Below, piece by piece: positions 34,807 to 43,837 of a stretch of 64,000 nt of DNA (its first letter is position 1; each line of letters opens with the position of its first letter). The DNA lies in assembly GCF_007752345.1 (NCBI RefSeq), contig NZ_CP036299.1, positions 434,001 to 498,000 on the forward strand, read 5' to 3'. This DNA comes from Planctopirus ephydatiae (lineage in GTDB: Bacteria > Planctomycetota > Planctomycetia > Planctomycetales > Planctomycetaceae). The notes under the pieces were generated by a model, which had not been told where the DNA came from, did no database searches, and saw only the letters and a program-made list of their open reading frames with translations. Both the position numbers and the translations under genes were made by a program.

Positions 34807-36327
34807 TCACAGAGTCTTGAGGTATTCCAGGAGAGCTTTTTTCTCATCGGCAGTCAGTGCATTGGGGTAGTCGTGCCCGACAGATGACTTGCCTTTGAGC
34901 TTTGTATCGAAGTAGCGGCGTCTTTCGGCAGGAATTTTGATACCCGTCGGCAATCGGCCGAACTCTTCCACTTCGAGACCCACTTTGTTCGTATCGTAAC
35001 CATTTTCAGTTCGTTTCCAGACAGCAGGGCGATTCTCAGGATGGAGGACATGCCAGAGTGTAGGGACACTGCCATTGTGAAAATAAGGAGCACTGGCCCA
35101 GATACCGACAAGTGGGGGTGCCACATAACCCGCAGGCTCGATGATCACTGGATGATTGCCGTAATCGCTCATCCAGCCATCTTTCATCCATTGGCGATGT
35201 GTAGCCGTTAATGCCTGCAGTCGAACGGGATCAGTGGCTACATCGCCGATCGGAATAATCTTCTGTTCGTACTTCACGACATCGCGTTTGGCTGAAGTGA
35301 GTGCATTCAGCGGAGTATCGGCTTGAAATTCCCGATCTGAAACAAGGGTTCCCTGACCATAATTGCCATGACAACTGGCACAGTTTTTCTCGAAGACTAA
35401 TCGGCCTGAGGCGGCCAGTGTGTCATCGATGGGGAAGGGATAAGCCGGTGCCTCGACAGATTCGATCCATTTTTCGATGGCTCGGAAATCATCTTCCCAA
35501 CTGTAGATTGTCGATTGGCCGTTCACTGGCAAGAGCATGAATTGCATGAGAGGGCGGTGATACTTGGGAGCGAAACCATCGCAGTAGAGCGAGGTTTTAT
35601 ATTTGACATTCCAGAAGGGTGGAGCATCGACATCGTGATGAATGACTGGCGGAACTGTTCGTGCCAGATCAACCGACATATCCGGACGGCGGAAGGTGCC
35701 CAGGATCACTCCAAAGATGACGGAATTGGTCGTGCCATTGGTCACGTTGAGCGGAATCGTCAGTGATGCAGTTTCCAGATGTGCCAGAGTCTCTTTGTTG
35801 GCGAGCTTGACCTGACGAAGATCTTCGGCAAGCGTTTGCAGGGCAAAGTGGGAATTGGGAAGGCCCGCCTTTGATTGGCCAGCCACTTTACCGCCGTGGC
35901 AGGCGAGGCAGGTCATTACCCAGTTTCCAGATTCTGTTTTGAGATATCCCAAGGCAGGGGTCCCAGAAACGGCTGACTCCTGGCTGGATTCGGCAGGCTT
36001 TTGCTGGGGATCTTCAATCAGGCCATAGTACGAGAAGAGAAGCTGCCGTTTTTCGTGCGAGGCAGCCTGGGCATATTTTGTCTTCCAGGGCTCGGGCCAG
36101 ACAGTCCAGAGCTGCTCAAGGTGGCGATCATGAAAGTCTGCTGGAAGAAAGGGTTTGGATTTGAGGATCCGGTAGCCATCCTCTGCGGTGACTTCCTGAG
36201 GATTGGCCTGCTGTGAAATTGAGACGGTGGGTGAATCGCTGGCATGGGTAATGGCGGTAAAATGACCCGCCATCAGCAGAACGGCCACTGCGAAAAGGAA
36301 GTTCGCAAGATATCGTTTTACACTCAT
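34807..36327 (-). CDS. secreted di-haem c-type cytochrome
   Basis: A 506-residue protein with signal segment YLANFLFAVAVLLMAGHFTA. Two c-type haem motifs are present: MTCLACHGG at about one-third and NCASCHGN at about two-thirds of the length. The layout, with a long inter-haem region, a GYVAPPLVGIWASAPYFHNGSVPTLWHVLHPENRPAVW segment and the EKKALLEYLKTL end, resembles the RoxA-like/di-haem peroxidase group. A peroxidase or dioxygenase role is inferred; no partner gene lies adjacent. The ATG at 36327 follows CCGGG and gives a proper signal peptide; the longer frame to 36636 overlaps the dehydratase gene and is improbable. Confidence 0.85.
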   Translation of the reverse strand: MSVKRYLANFLFAVAVLLMAGHFTAITHASDSPTVSISQQANPQEVTAEDGYRILKSKPFLPADFHDRHLEQLWTVWPEPWKTKYAQAASHEKRQLLFSYYGLIEDPQQKPAESSQESAVSGTPALGYLKTESGNWVMTCLACHGGKVAGQSKAGLPNSHFALQTLAEDLRQVKLANKETLAHLETASLTIPLNVTNGTTNSVIFGVILGTFRRPDMSVDLARTVPPVIHHDVDAPPFWNVKYKTSLYCDGFAPKYHRPLMQFMLLPVNGQSTIYSWEDDFRAIEKWIESVEAPAYPFPIDDTLAASGRLVFEKNCASCHGNYGQGTLVSDREFQADTPLNALTSAKRDVVKYEQKIIPIGDVATDPVRLQALTATHRQWMKDGWMSDYGNHPVIIEPAGYVAPPLVGIWASAPYFHNGSVPTLWHVLHPENRPAVWKRTENGYDTNKVGLEVEEFGRLPTGIKIPAERRRYFDTKLKGKSSVGHDYPNALTADEKKALLEYLKTL

Positions 36328-36361
36328 CCCGGAAGTTAATTGGGTATTGAGGGTGGGTAGA

Positions 36362-36391
36362 GCATGCTTGCTCAGAGCCGCAAGCATGGCA
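36362..36391. repeat. dispersed palindromic element (copy 2)
   Basis: Reverse complement of the 3541-3570 element with one mismatch. It forms the same 9-bp stem-loop. A second CGCAAGCATGGCAC unit follows about 30 bases later. It lies between the cytochrome and dehydratase genes. Confidence 0.7.
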
Positions 36392-36460
36392 CGAAACATC
36401 AAAGTCGCAAGCATGGCACACAGGCGGTTCACGAACTGGTGATGTTCCTGTTGATCAAGA

Positions 36461-38557
36461 TCAGCAACTGCTTCGTCCATGCGTAGTGGCGAGCAGGTCT
36501 GTGCCGGATTCTGGATTTGAGGAGCCAGCCGCGGGGTTGCTGCTGGAACTTCCTTCACCGGATAGGCTGCAGGGAGCAGTCCCCATGCGAGGTGCATTTG
36601 CGAGGGCGTTGACAATGGCGTCGACATCGTAGACACATCCTCCCCAGGTTCCGCCTCCTAACTGCTGCAATGCTGCCCAGAGCCTGGTGTCGGCCGGAAG
36701 TTCTGGGTCTGGAGCTAATTTCGGGTGAGGTGTACGCCCTGCTAGAATTCTAGCACCATGTTCGGCTATGAACGTGGCATCACCTTCGCCAATGAAGTTT
36801 ATACTTCCCGTCAAGTTCCGCGTATCGATCCGTACTTCGATGAGATCATTATCGCGGAGTTTCCCAATCGGGCCACCCGCGAGAGCTTCCGGGCCGACGT
36901 GACCAATGCAGGCCCCCGTCGAGACTCCCGAAAAGCGGGCATCAGTGATCAAAGTCACCTCTTTTCCAAAGGGGAGATATCTGAGGCTGGAAGTGATCTG
37001 ATAAGTTTCTTCCATTCCACAGCCCAAGGGCCCACGCCCGGCAAGAATGAGAATATCTCCTGCCTGGACTGCGGGTTGAGACTGGCCTTTGACCGCACGA
37101 ATCGCTTCCCGTTCCGTCGCAAAAAACCGCACACGGCCGATCTTGTGATAGACACCATTCGCATCCAATGTGGATTTGTCGATCGAAGTGGCTTTAACCA
37201 CAGAACCTTCGGGGGCAATGTTCCCGCGAGGGAAGCAGACAGTACTGGTCAATCCACGAGCCTTCGCCAGAGCGGGAGGCATCACCACGTCATCGGGATC
37301 GACACCATCCCGCTCACGCAATACTTGACGGACGCATTCACGACGTTCACTCTTTTCCCACCATTCGAGAACATCGCCGAGCGGTTTGCCAGTGGCTGTG
37401 AGTGCATTGAGCCGCAACAGACCCAAAGCACGCAAATGGAGCATGAGTTCCGGAACACCACCAGCCAGGAAGAATCGCACAGTGGGGTGACCTACGGGCC
37501 CATTCGGAAGGCAATCCACCAACCTGGGTGTCGCGAGGTTGATGCGGTTCCACTCTTCGACCTGGGGCCGCTCAAGACCGGCAGCAAAGGCGATAGCCGG
37601 GATATGCAGCAGCAGGTTCGTCGAGCCACCGCAGGCTGCATGCACGACCATCGCATTATGGAGCGAATCGGCGGTGAGGATCTTGTTCATCGATAGACCC
37701 GTCAGCCGCTGGGTCACGACAGCTCTGGCTGAACGGACGGCAATATCCAACCAGATCGGCTGGCCAGAGGGTGCCAGAGCGGCATGTGGTAAAGACATTC
37801 CTAACGCTTCAGCCACAACTTGCGACGTGGCGGCTGTCCCGAGAAACTGGCAACCACCACCTGCTGAACCACAGGCGCGGCAGCCTGCTTCGGCAGCATG
37901 TTCCAGCGAGATTTCGCCTTTGGCATAACGGGCACCGATACTCTGGACTTTCCCGGTATCTTCGCCCGAAACAGGAGGCAAAGTGACTCCGCCAGGGACA
38001 ATGACACACGGCAGATCGTGCATCGATGCCAGTGCCATCATCATGGCCGGAAGGCCTTTATCGCACGTCGCAACACCCACAACACCTTCTCGGACAGGAA
38101 GTGATCGAATCAACCGGCGGAGCACAATGGCTGCGTCATTCCGATAGGGCAGGCTGTCCATCATCCCCGTTGTGCCCTGGGTACGGCCGTCACAAGGATC
38201 GCTGACATATCCGGCAAACGGCAATCCCTCCAGACGATCGATTTCTTCGGCGGCAGCACGCATCAACAGGCCAACTTCGTAATGGCCCGTGTGATAACCC
38301 AGAGCAATGGGGCGACCATCTTCGCCACGAATACCACCTTGCGTACTGAGAATGAGGTATTGCGGCCTCAAGACTTCGGCCACTGGCCAGCCCATGCCGG
38401 CATTTTGAGTGAGACCAAACAGATCGCCACTGGGAGCATTTCTCAGCAGTTCGTCGGTGAGTGGCAAAGCACCTTGCGGGCCGGGGCCACGAGTTTCAAT
38501 CTGCCAGAGATCAGGAGTCTGTGAATCGACAAGACTTTCAAAGGTCGCCGGTTGCAT
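36461..38557 (-). CDS. D-xylonate dehydratase (YjhG/YagF family of IlvD/Edd)
   Basis: A roughly 698-residue IlvD/Edd-family dehydratase that should convert D-xylonate to 2-dehydro-3-deoxy-D-xylonate. It matches E. coli YjhG/YagF throughout: [72 protein letters not shown], the cysteine-rich [23 protein letters not shown] that holds the Fe-S cluster, and [31 protein letters not shown]. The ATG at 38557 best aligns with the family; 38581 is an alternative. The last 40 or so residues ([15 protein letters not shown]...) form an extra polar tail. No xylose pathway gene is adjacent. Confidence 0.92.
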
Positions 38558-38730
38558 TGCGAGGCTTTCCCGATGATTCATTCCACGCGGAGTTCGAACG
38601 AGCCAACGTCAGCGTGCAGAATCGAAATCAACACCAGCAAAGCATCAACTGACGGCTTGCGAAATATGTTAGCACAAAGACGGAGTGGGTGCGTGAGATC
38701 AACCCATCCAGAGGAAACCAGGGCAGGTCG

Positions 38731-40488
38731 TCAGGCCTCAATCACCAGATGGCTGCAAGCACGGGCCTGGCAGGGGAGGATATGGCCTTGTGCTCGTTCC
38801 TGCGGCGAAAGAGCTTCCTGGACATCCATCACCACTTCGCCACTGACGAGTCGAACTCGGCACTGGCCACAAACACCCGAGCGGCAGTCGTAGGGCCAGT
38901 CGAGTCCAGCCGCTTCAGCCGCTTCGAGCAGATTGTTGTAGCCGCCTAAATCAATGGTTTGCCGGGACGATTGCAACGTGGCTTGATAATCGCCCGAAGT
39001 TGCGGAGTGTGTGGCAAGTTGGTTTGAGATGGTCGCTGCGGAATTGGCTGGAGACTCCACAGGCAGAATCTCAGTCGCCTCTTTTTGTGCTGCTGGAGAG
39101 ACGAAGGCTTCGGTAAAGATCTGCTCGGCAGGTACTCCAAGTTCTGCCAGAAGCTCACGGGTGGCATCCATCATGGCGTCGGGGCCGCAGAGAAAGACCT
39201 GGCGCTGGGGCCAATCCTGTAAGCATTCGCGAAGCCACGAGGTGTTGATGCGTCCCTCACCTCGCCGCCAGCCATCCGGCACCATCCAATCATCCATCTC
39301 TGGAGATCGCGTTAATGTGACCGCCACATGGAGATTGGGAAATCGTCGGGCAAGATGTCGCAATTCATCGTAAAAGATCAAATCTTTAGGTGAACGATCG
39401 ACAACAAGAAAGTGGATTTCGCCGGCCCAGCAGGTATCGGTGAGGTAACGAGTCATCGACATGAGAGGTGTAATTCCCACACCACCCGAGATGAAAACCA
39501 CGTTGTTTGCCTGGCGACCATTAAAGAAGAACTTCCCTCCTGGTGCCGAGATGGAAACGAGATCCTCTTCTTGCAGGTGATCGTGCAGATACCGCGAGAC
39601 GAGGCCATGTTCCTCCCGTTTGACAGAAATTTCGCAATAGCTCGATTGGCTGGGGGATGATGCGATCGTATACGAGCGACTGATGAACTTTCCGTCGATG
39701 AGTACTTTCAATGTCAGGTACTGTCCGGGTTCAAAGGTAAACGGCAGATCGTTGCCATGGGGAGCCACGAAGCGAAACGTCTTCACAAGAGAAGTTTCAT
39801 GAAAAATGCGTGCCAGCTTGAGCTCTCCCGTCCAGAACTTCGGACGACCGGTCGGGATGGCTGGTGATTTGACGGAGGGGTGGACGGGTGAATGCGAACC
39901 CGAAGTTCTCAACAGTTTTTTCAACGGAACTCGCATCAACAGAAAGGCGCCCAGCACGACGGCAAAGGCGAGGGGCTGGCGAATATCGGCTTTCACCTGC
40001 ATGAAGTAATGGAGCACTGCCAGTGCTCCCACCAGGTACGCCAGGCGATGCAAGAGTTTCCAGCGCTTACCACCGATTCTATTAATCATGGCGTTTGTGG
40101 AAGTGACGGCCAGAGGGATCATGAGCATCAGTGCCGTCATGCCGACCAGAAGAAACCTTCGTTTCGTAATTTCGTCGAAGGTACTCGACAGGCTCAGAGC
40201 GCGATCAAATCCAAAGTAGATTCCGAAGTGAATGGCAGCATAGAAGAAGCCAAACAGCCCCAGAATGCGACGAAAGGCGACTGGTGTCGTCCAACCGGTA
40301 ACGATTCGAAGTGGCGTCACTGCGAGGGACGTCATAATGAACAACAGTGAGACATAGCCTGTTGTATGAATGGCCTGACTGATGGCGTTGCCACCAGTTT
40401 TGCCCTGTAACGCATCCCATCCCAGAAGTGCAAGGGGGATGAGACCATTAATAATCAGCAGCAGCTTCCAGAACTGAATCTCACTCAC
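38731..40488 (-). CDS. MsrQ-ferredoxin reductase-[2Fe-2S] ferredoxin fusion
   Basis: A 585-residue fusion. Residues about 1-195 are the MsrQ/YedZ haem b membrane domain (ferric-reductase-like; helices such as TTGYVSLLFIMTSLAVTPL, FGFFYAAIHFGIYFGF and HRLAYLVGALAVLHYFMQ, with His pairs). About 215-450 is a ferredoxin-NADP reductase module with FAD motif RSYTIASSP and NAD(P) motif GGVGITPLMSM. After a Ser/Thr/Ala-rich linker comes a plant-type [2Fe-2S] domain with DCRSGVCGQC (about 534-542) and a last Cys in LPCQ. The GTG at 40488 has GGAAGG seven bases upstream; the longer TTG frame is less likely. It follows MsrP and should carry electrons from NAD(P)H to it. Confidence 0.93.
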   Translation of the reverse strand: MSEIQFWKLLLIINGLIPLALLGWDALQGKTGGNAISQAIHTTGYVSLLFIMTSLAVTPLRIVTGWTTPVAFRRILGLFGFFYAAIHFGIYFGFDRALSLSSTFDEITKRRFLLVGMTALMLMIPLAVTSTNAMINRIGGKRWKLLHRLAYLVGALAVLHYFMQVKADIRQPLAFAVVLGAFLLMRVPLKKLLRTSGSHSPVHPSVKSPAIPTGRPKFWTGELKLARIFHETSLVKTFRFVAPHGNDLPFTFEPGQYLTLKVLIDGKFISRSYTIASSPSQSSYCEISVKREEHGLVSRYLHDHLQEEDLVSISAPGGKFFFNGRQANNVVFISGGVGITPLMSMTRYLTDTCWAGEIHFLVVDRSPKDLIFYDELRHLARRFPNLHVAVTLTRSPEMDDWMVPDGWRRGEGRINTSWLRECLQDWPQRQVFLCGPDAMMDATRELLAELGVPAEQIFTEAFVSPAAQKEATEILPVESPANSAATISNQLATHSATSGDYQATLQSSRQTIDLGGYNNLLEAAEAAGLDWPYDCRSGVCGQCRVRLVSGEVVMDVQEALSPQERAQGHILPCQARACSHLVIEA

Positions 40489-40608
40489 GCGGTGGCCTTC
40501 CCGAGATGCATGGATTAACGCGGACAATTCAATTCCGTCTTCGAAGCCAACGGAAAGTTGCCCTGGTGGCTGCTCCTGAGAGGCGGCCCCCCAACCGGCG
40601 GACAGGGA

Positions 40609-41595
40609 TCAGTAGAATTTTCGCAGATTCATTCCTGTATAAAGTGAAGCCACCTGCTCTTCATAACCGTTGAACATGAGTGTTTTGCGACGCCCGAGTT
40701 CGCCAATACGCTGTTCAGTCGCCTGGCTCCAGCGGGGATGATCGACTTCCGGATTCACATTCGCGAAGAAACCGTATTCGTGAGGTGCGAAACGATTCCA
40801 ACTGGTGGGTGGTTCTTCGGCCACCAGCGAAATCTTGACGATTGATTTGATGCCTTTGAAACCGTACTTCCAGGGGACAACCAGCCGCACAGGAGCCCCA
40901 TCCTGGGGTGGCAATTCTTTGCCATACAGCCCTGTCGCGAGCAGTGTCAAAGGATGCATGGCTTCGTCGAGCCTCAAACCTTCGACATAGGGCCAGTCGA
41001 GAACAGGCGAGGCCTGTCCCGGCATGCGGACAGGATCGAACAATGTTTCGAACGCCACAAATTTGGCGGCAGATTTGGGCTGAACGGCTTCAAGAATTCG
41101 GGCTAAGGGAATCCCGGCCCAGGGAATAACCATTGACCAGGCTTCGACGCAGCGCATGCGATAGATGCGTTCTTCGGGTGAGCTGAGTGCTTTCAGCGAA
41201 TCCATTGTGAAAGTGGTGGGTTTATCGACCAACCCGCCGACTTCGATTTTCCAGCCCTCGGTTTTGAAGTTTGCAGCAGCTCTGGCCACCCCTTCTTTCG
41301 AGGTCGTGAATTCGTAGAAGTTATTGTAATTGATAATGTCAATCTCAGGGGTTAAGGGTTCATCAACCTTGAATCCCTGGCTGGCCAGATTGGCATCCGT
41401 ATCAGCAGGACGTACCAGCCCCTCAATGGCTGCAGTATTGGCCTCTTTCTGGGCTGGCTGTTTGAAGGCACGATAGAGACCAATGGTGGCACCGACAGTG
41501 CCTAATGCAATGGCTGCCCGCATGATCTGCCGGCGATTGAAATAGAGTTCAGGCGGTGTGATTTCCGCATCAGAGATCTTTGGATCCGTGGACAT
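40609..41595 (-). CDS. msrP: MsrP (YedY) periplasmic methionine sulfoxide reductase, molybdopterin subunit
   Basis: A 328-residue Tat-exported molybdoenzyme of the sulfite-oxidase fold that reduces methionine sulfoxide in envelope proteins. The twin-arginine signal is NRRQIMRAAIALGTVGATIGL. The Mo-ligating cysteine is Cys149 in MRCVEAWSM. Further signatures are YNNFYEFTTSKE, GLRLDEAMHPLTLLATGLYGKELPPQDGAPVRLVVPWKYGFKGIKSIVKI, SWN and the C-terminal LFNGY-like segment, all as in YedY. The ATG at 41595 follows AGGTGGGA (an in-frame GTG at 41601 is possible). It sits between a Met-rich lipoprotein (60 bases upstream) and the MsrQ fusion. Confidence 0.95.
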   Translation of the reverse strand: MSTDPKISDAEITPPELYFNRRQIMRAAIALGTVGATIGLYRAFKQPAQKEANTAAIEGLVRPADTDANLASQGFKVDEPLTPEIDIINYNNFYEFTTSKEGVARAAANFKTEGWKIEVGGLVDKPTTFTMDSLKALSSPEERIYRMRCVEAWSMVIPWAGIPLARILEAVQPKSAAKFVAFETLFDPVRMPGQASPVLDWPYVEGLRLDEAMHPLTLLATGLYGKELPPQDGAPVRLVVPWKYGFKGIKSIVKISLVAEEPPTSWNRFAPHEYGFFANVNPEVDHPRWSQATEQRIGELGRRKTLMFNGYEEQVASLYTGMNLRKFY

Positions 41596-41655
41596 TCCCA
41601 CCTCACTCTCGACGTTACAAAAGACGAATGTGGGCCAGTACTGACAGCCGGAAGC

Positions 41656-41958
41656 TTACTTCTTCTCGCCGGCCGTATCTGGTGCCATCATCGCGGGAGG
41701 TTTCATCTTATCATCACTTTTCATGGCTGGTGCCATCATACCATCTGACATTTTGGGATCTGCCATCATCTTTTCGCCAGCCATTTTTTCGCCGGCCATC
41801 ATGCCATCATTCATCTTCGGCTCACTCATCATGGGAGCCATGGCAGCACCACTCCCTCCTGCGGGGGCAGAACTTGTGGTTGAGGCTGCTTGACCACAAC
41901 CAACCACCAGACCCATTAAACCTGCGCTTGCCCACATCCAGACGGTGCGACGATGCAT
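41656..41958 (-). CDS. methionine-rich lipoprotein (MrpX-like)
   Basis: A 100-residue lipoprotein. The signal peptide MHRRTVWMWASAGLMGLVVG ends at the lipobox Cys21 (LVVGCG). The 80-residue mature part is low-complexity and contains 16 methionines, in repeats of the form EPKM, DGMM, GEKM and DPKM. GAGG precedes the ATG at 41958 by eight bases; the longer frame to 42054 lacks support. It is the first gene of an operon with MsrP and the MsrQ fusion. In Azospira a Met-rich periplasmic peptide (MrpX) encoded with YedY scavenges hypochlorite, and this protein is a likely membrane-anchored analogue. Metal binding by the methionines is an alternative. Confidence 0.85.
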   Translation of the reverse strand: MHRRTVWMWASAGLMGLVVGCGQAASTTSSAPAGGSGAAMAPMMSEPKMNDGMMAGEKMAGEKMMADPKMSDGMMAPAMKSDDKMKPPAMMAPDTAGEKK

Positions 41959-42249
41959 GTGATTTTCCTCAATACCGGGTGAGCTGGATGCGAAGGGAGA
42001 TTCTCGCAAGCTCACACCCGTTGCCATGAATTGGAATGGCCAGACAGGCCACATGACTGTTTAGAGCAGGCGGAATTGAGAAAGGTGACACGCAGTGCAA
42101 CGAATCTGACGAAATGCCGGTTCAACGTAGTCAACCGAGTTGAGGTCTCATGAAGTCTGCAGGTATCAGCAGGTGGCGATGCCTGCGTGCCTTTGGGAGG
42201 GGTGTTCAATTTTGCGGCCAGATGCATTTGCTGAGCCATAAAAGAGCGA

Positions 42250-42279
42250 GGGGTTGGAAATCTTTCGATTTCCAACCCC
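42250..42279 (-). terminator. strong intrinsic terminator of the structured RNA
   Basis: Perfect 13-bp stem GGGGTTGGAAATC / GATTTCCAACCCC with a GAAA tetraloop on the minus strand, followed by TCGCTCTTTTAT. The T-run is on the minus-strand side only, which sets the direction of transcription as leftward. Confidence 0.75.
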
Positions 42280-42410
42280 GAGGCTCGTGCGATACCCCTA
42301 TTGAGTGTTCTTAGTGGAATTCGGAATCACGAAGAATCGAATTCGCAGAACGTTCTCTAAGGATGTGGCCGCTACGAGACGGTGGCTCTAAGCCAGTCCG
42401 TCGACTGTCA

Positions 42411-42455: not shown

Positions 42456-42748
42456 ACGACCACCTCCTTTCTACAGTTTATAGATCGTCCGCCGGATTCG
42501 ATCGGGGTCACCTCCGATCACATCTCCAGCCGGTCTACCGTCGCACTACGTTTGTGCGAACTGTCGGGATTATTTACTGAGTTTTGAACAACGGCAAGAG
42601 CGTTTTAGCGAAGGAATCGCGAATTTTTGATTTTGATCGCCTCTCTGGCCGCACTTTTCTCAGTGACAATCCTGAGAGACTCAGTTGCTTTGGGCTCTGT
42701 TCACCGAAGATAATTCAAAAACAATTAAAGGTTTGGCAGGTAACAGAA

Positions 42749-43837
42749 GTGACGAATCCTTCGGCTGATCGCCGTGATTTTCTAACAGGTCGGCTGGCAC
42801 AACAGATTGCTGCTGAAGCTGCTCTCCGATCTACTGATTCGCCGAGTACAGAAACGCCAACTCGGGGGCCAGTGCTTCTGCTACAAACCACAGCGATGGC
42901 CTGCCATTTCGATGTGATCCTGAATCCTGATGGCCCGGCCCGGCAAGTGGAGGCCGCTTCTGAGGCACTGGATCTGGTGCATCAGCTTGAAGCGATGATG
43001 ACGATCTATCGTCCCGAAGCCGAGCTGGCGATCATTAATCAAACGGCAGCGCTTGAGCCTGTCGAAGTCAGCGGTGAACTGCTCGACTTGTTGATTGAAG
43101 TGCGGGATCTGGTCGCGAAAACGGAAGGGGCGTTTGATCCCACCACCGGGCCACTGATTGCCGTCTGGAGAACAGCTCGGAAGGAAGGTCGTCTGCCGAG
43201 TACGGCTGAACTGGAAGCTGCGCGGCAACTGACGGGCATGGACCAGATTCAGTTGGATGTGGCGTCAAAAACGGTGCGATATCGCCAGCCAGGTGTGGAA
43301 TTAAATCTGGGTGCCATTGGTAAAGGATATGCCGTTGATTGTGCCGGGAGGCATTTGAGCTCGCGCGGGATCGACCATTGGCTGGTGCATGGTGGAAAAA
43401 GCAGTGTTCTGGCCGCGGGAGACCATGCAGGGCATGGCGGCTGGCCTGTCGGATTGCGCGATCCTCTGCTGCCGCAACATTCGTGGGGCACGATTTTATT
43501 GAAAAATCAGGCCTTGGGGACCAGCGGAACAGCCGCACAGGGGTTTCGAGTCGGTGGACGGCGGTATGGTCATATTCTGGATCCTCGGACGGGCTGGCCG
43601 GTCGAAAATGTCCTTTCTGTCAGCGTATTAACGGCACGAGCGGCCTTGGCAGACGCACTTTCCACGGCTTTTTTCGTGCTGGGGGTCGAAAAGACTCGAC
43701 GTCTCTGTGATAATTCAACAGATGTCGGTGTGTTGTTGTTTACCCAGTCCAGTCGTCAAATGGCTGCGGAAGCCACAATCATCAACGTCCCTCCAGAGAT
43801 TCTTTACCCTGCCCGCTCACCTGCCGCCTCATTCTGA
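42749..43837 (+). CDS. apbE: FAD:protein FMN transferase
   Basis: A 362-residue ApbE-family protein that attaches FMN to Thr/Ser residues of redox proteins. Signatures are TTAMACHFDVIL near the start, EGAFDPTTGPLIAVWR, VELNLGAIGKGYAVD, WLVHGGKSSVLAAG and the metal-site GTSGTAAQGFRVGGRRYGHILDPRTGWP. The GTG at 42749 is chosen, with AGG about nine bases upstream; this gives a short RRDFLTG N-terminus of Tat-like type without a clear hydrophobic core. No flavinylation motif (DxxSGAT) was found in the adjacent Msr proteins. The target is unknown. Confidence 0.9.
   Translation: MTNPSADRRDFLTGRLAQQIAAEAALRSTDSPSTETPTRGPVLLLQTTAMACHFDVILNPDGPARQVEAASEALDLVHQLEAMMTIYRPEAELAIINQTAALEPVEVSGELLDLLIEVRDLVAKTEGAFDPTTGPLIAVWRTARKEGRLPSTAELEAARQLTGMDQIQLDVASKTVRYRQPGVELNLGAIGKGYAVDCAGRHLSSRGIDHWLVHGGKSSVLAAGDHAGHGGWPVGLRDPLLPQHSWGTILLKNQALGTSGTAAQGFRVGGRRYGHILDPRTGWPVENVLSVSVLTARAALADALSTAFFVLGVEKTRRLCDNSTDVGVLLFTQSSRQMAAEATIINVPPEILYPARSPAASF

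Follow-up and report, generated by a model that had tools for sequence, protein, structure and literature searches.

A methionine-rich lipoprotein gene in one operon with msrP and an MsrQ fusion

The window analysed here is a stretch of 64,000 nucleotides of the Planctopirus ephydatiae genome (contig NZ_CP036299.1, positions 434,001 to 498,000). One of its minus-strand operons carries three genes in the transcription order methionine-rich (Met-rich) lipoprotein precursor, MsrP and MsrQ fusion, with intergenic gaps of 54 bp and 81 bp. This composition, with 16 Met among the 80 mature residues of the predicted lipoprotein, had been proposed in a first-pass annotation and was confirmed by the lipobox, family and domain matches. 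The precursor has 100 amino acids (aa) (41656..41958, minus strand) and is assigned from its lipobox, its coding constraint and its relatives. Codons 41899-41958 encode the signal peptide, and the mature part starts at the Cys codon 41896-41898. This residue, Cys21, ends the lipobox VVG/C and is invariant in 12 aligned lipoproteins. Besides Met, the mature part contains 9 Lys/Arg and 10 Asp/Glu, and it has no His and no Phe, Trp, Tyr, Leu, Ile or Val. The product is a small exported polypeptide with a very high Met content behind a signal peptide, as are the MrpX and MXKDX scavengers.

A low-complexity sequence such as this could be read as a chance open frame, and no family profile matched the window lipoprotein, which would fit. 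However, the window gene shows 12/5 and 7/2 synonymous/non-synonymous differences to two congeners, and its length changes within the genus are whole codons. A gene of this kind also recurs at the same place, upstream of msrP and on the msrP strand, in all 13 MsrP-linked cases, which come from seven genera. Judged from the substitution pattern, the lipoprotein gene is under purifying selection. The chance-frame explanation, to which we give practically no weight, is already contradicted by these sequence comparisons.

The short exported Met/Lys/Asp repeats are like those of the TIGR02953 MXKDX proteins, but membership in this family was rejected. The window protein gave no match, and its relatives at loci L141 and L153 scored 25.8 and 31.4 bits, below the cut-off of 41 bits. 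Nothing exceeded this cut-off in the 170 genomes of the family (best 34.7 bits). When loci from this family-wide search were inspected, L233 and L236 turned out to be the lipoproteins of genomes G216 and G358, and L234, L235, L238, L239, L240 and L241 were other proteins or repeats in another frame; L237, L242 and the matches without a locus lay outside the inspection.

MsrP (40609..41601, minus strand) is a molybdoenzyme exported by the twin-arginine translocation (Tat) route. It scored 459 bits against a cut-off of 207 bits in NCBIfam PRK05363 and matches the solved structure 1xdq/1xdy. Translation probably starts at an ATG two codons downstream of the listed GTG. Cys151 and the twin Arg (RR) are invariant in ten aligned proteins, and we take them to be the molybdenum ligand and the Tat signal, respectively.

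The MsrQ fusion (598 aa, 38731..40527, minus strand) is assigned from family and domain matches. Its MsrQ haem membrane domain (residues 16-206; 39910..40482) scored 149 bits against a cut-off of 130 bits for NF003831. It is followed in the same chain by the reductase domains FAD_binding_6 (PF00970) and NAD_binding_1 (PF00175), at about residues 237-477 (39097..39819), and by the [2Fe-2S] ferredoxin domain Fer2 (PF00111), at residues 518-590 (38758..38976), all on the minus strand. The earlier suggestion of an electron path within the operon was supported by these matches in that a single polypeptide holds the domains for electron flow from NAD(P)H to haem. In 15 fused proteins, His100, His160 and His173 of MsrQ, the FAD motif, the NAD motif and four cluster Cys are all invariant. 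The three His residues presumably bind haem, and the FAD, NAD and cluster roles of the other residues are likewise our assignment. In the AlphaFold model (mean predicted local distance difference test score 74, predicted template modelling score 0.52) the domains are fairly good and their arrangement is uncertain, and therefore no claim on electron distances is made.

Linkage to MsrP and a second enzyme setting

MsrP was searched in the 170 family genomes, of which 77 matched. The MsrPs of 25 genomes, including that of the window, share 59% identity or more and are called clade I; the other 52 genomes hold a second, MsrP-like group. Flanks of up to about 6 kb per side were compared, less at contig ends, and an open reading frame (ORF) with 10 or more Met in 60 residues was counted as Met-rich. 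The clade I sample comprised 24 loci plus the window, with L161, a split gene of G443, counted together with L162. The second-group sample comprised 35 loci, 33 from the 52 family genomes and two from other families. A Met-rich ORF was found near MsrP in 15 of 25 clade I loci (14/24 plus the window) versus 0/35 in the second group (Fisher 6e-8, relatedness uncorrected). Thirteen of these 15 genes encode lipoproteins, from seven genera. The remaining two products are larger and without lipobox, one encoded 3 kb off on the other strand (L142) and one with its start near a contig end (L151). The first-pass annotation had made its case depend on conservation of the small gene beside msrP in relatives, and the 15 of 25 clade I loci leave that case standing.

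Larger Met-rich proteins near MsrP (L142, L061, L151 and L067) have 153-269 aa and up to 55 Met, and three of them (L142, L061 and L151) form one cluster. A Pfam match was not found for L061, nor a good NCBIfam match for L142 or L067. A DUF1223 gene stands directly upstream of msrP in L145, L147, L150, L152, L142 and L061 (PF06764 checked for L147), and in the first four of these it lies between the lipoprotein gene and msrP.

MsrQ adjoins MsrP in all 24 fetched clade I loci and in the window, and it was not found in the 35 second-group loci, a few of which have under 1.1 kb downstream. This MsrP-like group without neighbouring MsrQ (L163-L197) is common in the family (52/77 matching genomes). 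The window and 19 other clade I loci (20 of 25) have MsrQ fused to reductase domains and not as a stand-alone membrane protein of about 200 aa; a Met-rich gene is present in 15/20 fused versus 0/5 unfused loci. A wider sample took the 80 named loci that matched MsrP best in a collection of bacterial genomes. The fusion was found in 15 of them and was absent from 60, two of which (L061 and L069) run off their contigs; five gave no call. Thirteen of the 15 fused loci are labelled planctomycetes. The other two, in metagenome-assembled genomes labelled Proteobacteria (L064) and Myxococcales (L066), may be transfers or misfiled bins. Among these 80 named MsrP loci the fusion is nearly confined to planctomycetes. 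The small lipoproteins recognised in this sample (L058, L059, L062 and L065) adjoin fused MsrQ and their contigs are those of four of the 13 MsrP-linked lipoprotein loci; the rows L060 (204 aa, an ordinary protein by sequence) and L096 (227 aa) were dropped from the counts. For E. coli MsrQ, the accessible parts of two papers give quinones as electron source and, as a further possibility, a separate flavin reductase (PMC8315932, PMC5676040). The planctomycete fusion would give MsrQ a built-in NAD(P)H donor, because the reductase domains are present in the same chain.

To follow the lipoprotein itself, profile A1 was made from 12 lipoproteins and run over the 170 family genomes. It matched 52 genomes at E <= 0.01, and 20 were accepted (19 at E <= 8.4e-8 and G298 at 3.2e-5). 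Among the weaker loci, L222, L223, L226 and L230 are not of this lipoprotein kind, and L225, a small Met-rich lipoprotein, was not counted with the 20; L227-L229, L231, L232 and the matches without a locus were outside the inspection. Applied at E <= 1e-6 to 284 sampled genomes of the phylum, A1 matched two, both of this family. Thirteen of the 20 clear lipoprotein genomes have clade I MsrP. The other seven, from three genera, have cytochrome b561/SUOX-II genes, and none of them has clade I MsrP in the search of the 170 genomes.

In this second setting (loci L243-L249; genomes G390, G393, G433, G435, G388, G387 and G298), the lipoprotein gene is followed by genes for cytochrome b561 and a twin-Arg enzyme of the sulfite oxidase family (SUOX-II). 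Cytochrome b561 was recognised in six of the seven loci and is not displayed in L247 (PF01292 checked for L243). SUOX-II was checked with PF00174 for L243, and its gene in G435 is on another contig. At 81 bits, SUOX-II stays below the 207 bits required for the MsrP family, and it shares 34% identity over 154 residues with the window MsrP. It was found in exactly those seven of the 170 family genomes. Like MsrP, SUOX-II keeps the Cys-Val-Glu, a site at which sulfite oxidases differ from MsrP.

The same lipoprotein kind thus stands with two different pairs of molybdoenzyme and haem protein, and in our view no other indirect evidence speaks as strongly for its being a substrate of enzymes of this type. 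For the same reason we predict from gene context that SUOX-II with cytochrome b561 reduces Met sulfoxide and so represents a second reductase type. The MsrP-centred view of the first-pass annotation was right in outline and too narrow, since the lipoprotein also pairs with SUOX-II and cytochrome b561. In the literature searched, which left most subscription papers outside, no link of cytochrome b561 to methionine sulfoxide, sulfite oxidase or MsrP was found. A fused haem-molybdenum protein is described as a distant homologue of MsrP/MsrQ in the accessible part of one paper (PMC5449189).

A putative ECF promoter and its sigma factor

A promoter-like motif, TGTCACCTT-N15-MTCK (42063..42090, minus strand), lies 104 bp before the lipoprotein ATG and is a putative promoter for an extracytoplasmic function (ECF) sigma factor. 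TGT[AC]AC[CT], followed by [AC]TC 16-17 bases on, was found upstream of the lipoprotein gene in the genus of the window, in four g252 genomes and in g223. In the second setting, TGTAAC[CT], with GCATC or ACATC spaced accordingly, was found 144-156 bp upstream of six of the seven lipoprotein genes, and L249 has a variant; these sites are independent of the motif definition. The strict form TGTAAC[CT]-N14-[GA]CATC gave 9 distinct sites before Met-rich genes versus 3 elsewhere, in a scan of both strands of about 1.03 Mb of partly overlapping loci. In the whole genome of the window, the genus pattern matched twice, before the operon and before an ECF gene. Among the congeners, G294 likewise has two matches, G296 one (lipoprotein) and G295 three, and the reversed control pattern had none in the four genomes. 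The extra G295 matches (G295:C3:51441 and G295:C132:6622) may be further regulon members or chance. A scan of 38560-42300 for sigma-70 promoters found none, with 2.4 expected in shuffles.

The ECF gene preceded by the motif is located at G000:C1:416192, 17.8 kb before the start of the window and about 59 kb from the lipoprotein gene. It is followed by a gene for an 81-aa HxxxCxxC protein, which is not of the membrane-spanning anti-sigma type. Orthologs of this sigma factor (51% identity or more; other ECFs 42% or less) were found in 13 of 22 chosen genomes. They are present in 13/15 lipoprotein genomes with the motif (a variant in G298), in 0/4 lipoprotein genomes without the motif and in 0/3 genomes without the lipoprotein; the ortholog was missed in G295 and G433, whose genomes are 88% and 66% complete. 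In L243, L244, L246 and L249 the ECF gene lies just upstream of the lipoprotein gene. Next after the sigma gene, 11 of 12 ortholog loci encode a small HxxxCxxC protein, and L283 has one on the other strand; that of L243 is a Pfam zf-HC2 protein. An earlier query with the sigma factor of L148 gave weak matches alone in the window's genome, and the query from the second setting was the useful one.

Because of the motif and its co-occurrence with the ortholog, the operon is considered to be under putative ECF control. The sigma factor, held by its zinc-finger anti-sigma, probably controls its own gene and the operon, as these sequence patterns suggest. The first-pass interpretation was too narrow in this respect too, as regulation points to a sigma factor encoded outside the window. 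The lipoprotein might instead act as a redox sensor, reporting Met oxidation to this ECF/anti-sigma pair or to another regulator, and the adjoining genes in several second-setting loci would suit such a role. However, the anti-sigma candidates are small HxxxCxxC proteins with no evident envelope link, the pair is encoded at a distance in the window's genome, and the very high number of Met suggests capacity, not sensing. We consider the sensor role very unlikely.

Beside the ECF pair in the window's genome (L277, 412000-421500), an Rrf2-like regulator and a flavohaemoglobin-like globin were recognised by eye, hinting at a link of the pair with nitric oxide stress. Directly beside the MsrP/MsrQ-fusion loci L148, L149 and L071, with or without the lipoprotein, lies another ECF gene, whose small Cys-rich partner (82 aa or similar) has no Pfam match. 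Two-component pairs are near MsrP in L142 and L061, by sequence.

An anchored methionine buffer, its rivals and its relatives

We propose that the operon encodes a rechargeable envelope methionine buffer, a lipid-anchored relative, in logic, of MrpX/YedYZ that is separately wired, and we put the probability of this reading at about 0.7. The short, apparently unstructured lipoprotein (about 20% Met) would be exported and then anchored by lipid, and its Met side chains would react with strong oxidants to Met sulfoxide. Tat-exported MsrP, going by its family, would reduce these sulfoxides back. Electrons of cytosolic NAD(P)H would pass through the FAD and [2Fe-2S] domains to the MsrQ haem and across the membrane. 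The ECF sigma factor, held by the zinc-finger anti-sigma, would switch on its own gene and the operon. Where this kind of lipoprotein occurs without clade I MsrP, in seven genomes, cytochrome b561 and SUOX-II would serve it. In the 20 lipoproteins the Met fraction is held at 17-26% while the number of repeats varies, which therefore fits a buffer. Whether lipid-anchored Met buffer and ECF promoter form a portable envelope module with two pairings, the MsrP/NAD(P)H-driven MsrQ fusion and a new-class SUOX-II/cytochrome b561, seems to us an evenly balanced question.

Several observations weigh against the buffer reading or its regulation. The association counts are not phylogenetically independent, and no Met-rich gene turned up in the compared flanks of 10 of the 25 clade I MsrP loci; the partnership is therefore common and not obligatory. 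The larger Met-rich neighbours of L142, L061 and L067 have no lipobox, and at L151 the N-terminus lies close to the end of a contig. Within 1.5 kb of a small Met-rich lipoprotein gene in G416 (L225), neither MsrP nor a SUOX enzyme is encoded. The promoter motif is missing at four of the 13 MsrP-linked lipoproteins (L141, L144, L149 and L153). The genus pattern was built from the very sites found, G295 has two extra matches, and G296 has the lipoprotein site alone.

The 10 loci with MsrP/MsrQ and no Met-rich gene, and the four in which the DUF1223 gene separates lipoprotein gene and msrP, are also what would be seen if MsrP/MsrQ served general envelope repair and the lipoprotein merely shared the regulon, not being the substrate that matters. 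That account is quite unlikely in our view, since the same lipoprotein kind accompanies a second SUOX-family enzyme in seven genomes and its Met fraction is kept in the narrow range given above despite the varying repeat number.

A role in metal binding was also weighed. Met-rich repeats can bind Cu(I), as is well established, and MsrPQ is described together with the Met-rich copper chaperone CusF of E. coli in the accessible part of one paper (PMC9302797). The relative at L149 has a very weak CopL-family match (E 0.74). The lipoprotein could accordingly be a Met-only envelope binder of Cu(I) or Ag(I), whose oxidised metal-binding Met residues MsrP repairs. Across the 1396 mature residues of the 20 lipoproteins there are 280 Met, only 4 His and no Cys beyond the lipobox one, which argues against a classical copper site, and Met-only Cu(I) binding is still compatible with it. 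The Met residues are spaced with Lys/Asp as in the MXKDX scavengers, and no copper gene was recognised among the annotated neighbours, most of the 453 neighbouring ORFs being unannotated. We regard the metal-binding role as unlikely and prefer the methionine buffer.

The logic of such a buffer has precedents in Proteobacteria. Melnyk et al. in 2015 reportedly described mrpX-yedYZ with SigF/NrsF in Azospira suillum, where the Met-rich peptide is said to be soluble, MsrQ to stand alone and NrsF to be a membrane protein. Fusions of YedZ to electron carriers were reportedly treated by von Rozycki et al. in 2004, to go by the title, so MsrQ-domain fusions are known in principle. The accessible parts of three papers present the Azospira genes as a Met-cycling system (PMC4623255, PMC5748585, PMC8315932). 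The planctomycete operon is like it in having an exported Met-rich polypeptide with MsrP/MsrQ, putative sigma/anti-sigma control and a proposed Met-cycling logic. Unlike the Azospira system, it has a predicted lipoprotein, a small HxxxCxxC protein as candidate anti-sigma, and an MsrQ to which FAD, NAD and [2Fe-2S] domains are fused. Brucella melitensis bcrXQP, as far as one source in part describes it, is induced by hypochlorous acid (HOCl), contributes to HOCl resistance and joins MsrQ and MsrP with a Met-rich MXKDX protein in a single operon that adjoins an ECF sigma factor gene, with BcrS/AbcS as regulatory pair (PMC8315932). In the same source, the promoter table includes TGTAACC, like the motif found here, and a figure legend names transmembrane helices, presumably of the anti-sigma. 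In contrast to the window protein, the Brucella Met-rich protein is annotated there as MXKDX, and the accessible text gives neither lipid anchor nor reductase fusion (PMC8315932). The haem domain of the window MsrQ is like that of E. coli MsrPQ, and haem and ferredoxin-NADP reductase (FNR) parts in one chain are like bacterial NADPH oxidases; unlike both, as partly available in PMC5676040, the window MsrQ has an FNR part plus a [2Fe-2S] domain at its C-terminus, and its gene neighbours msrP.

The first-pass annotation had called the combination undescribed. The kind is known from mrpX-yedYZ and bcrXQP, whereas the anchor, the fusion, the regulator and the second enzyme pairing are new as far as the literature searched shows. 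In that literature, the phrase 'methionine-rich lipoprotein' was absent and no paper linked Planctomycetes, ECF sigma factors and methionine-rich proteins; a paper on planctomycetes, methionine sulfoxide reductase and hypochlorite concerns, in its accessible part, chlorite dismutase neighbourhoods (PMC9751292). If the proposal is true, sacrificial Met cycling in the envelope also exists outside Proteobacteria and is wired differently there, with an anchored buffer, the reductase in MsrQ and another anti-sigma. Since the same kind of lipoprotein and promoter occurs beside a different enzyme, a new Met sulfoxide reductase, made up of a SUOX-family protein and cytochrome b561, is predicted, and the fusion suggests where MsrQ gets its electrons in this lineage.

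Some minor features were recorded. In ten Chloroflexota-labelled MsrP records (L088, L094, L096, L098, L099, L101, L106, L112, L126 and L137), a lipobox-like LAAC, LSAC or VAAC follows the twin Arg, and by this sequence MsrP itself may be a lipoprotein there. For the idea of an uncleaved Tat anchor in planctomycete MsrP, a crude AxA search gave 24/32 versus 52/67, with the groups not separated and a wrong RR in some rows. The lipoprotein gene of L225 adjoins a queC-like gene. Upstream of the operon in the window, a consensus scan alone gave a terminator-like 13-bp stem-loop with a T-rich tail (42250..42279, minus strand). An ApbE-family gene (42584-43837) is divergent from the operon and a RoxA-like cytochrome gene (34807-36636) lies downstream of it; genes of similar size at these two positions fall into clusters solely with those of the two closest congeners.

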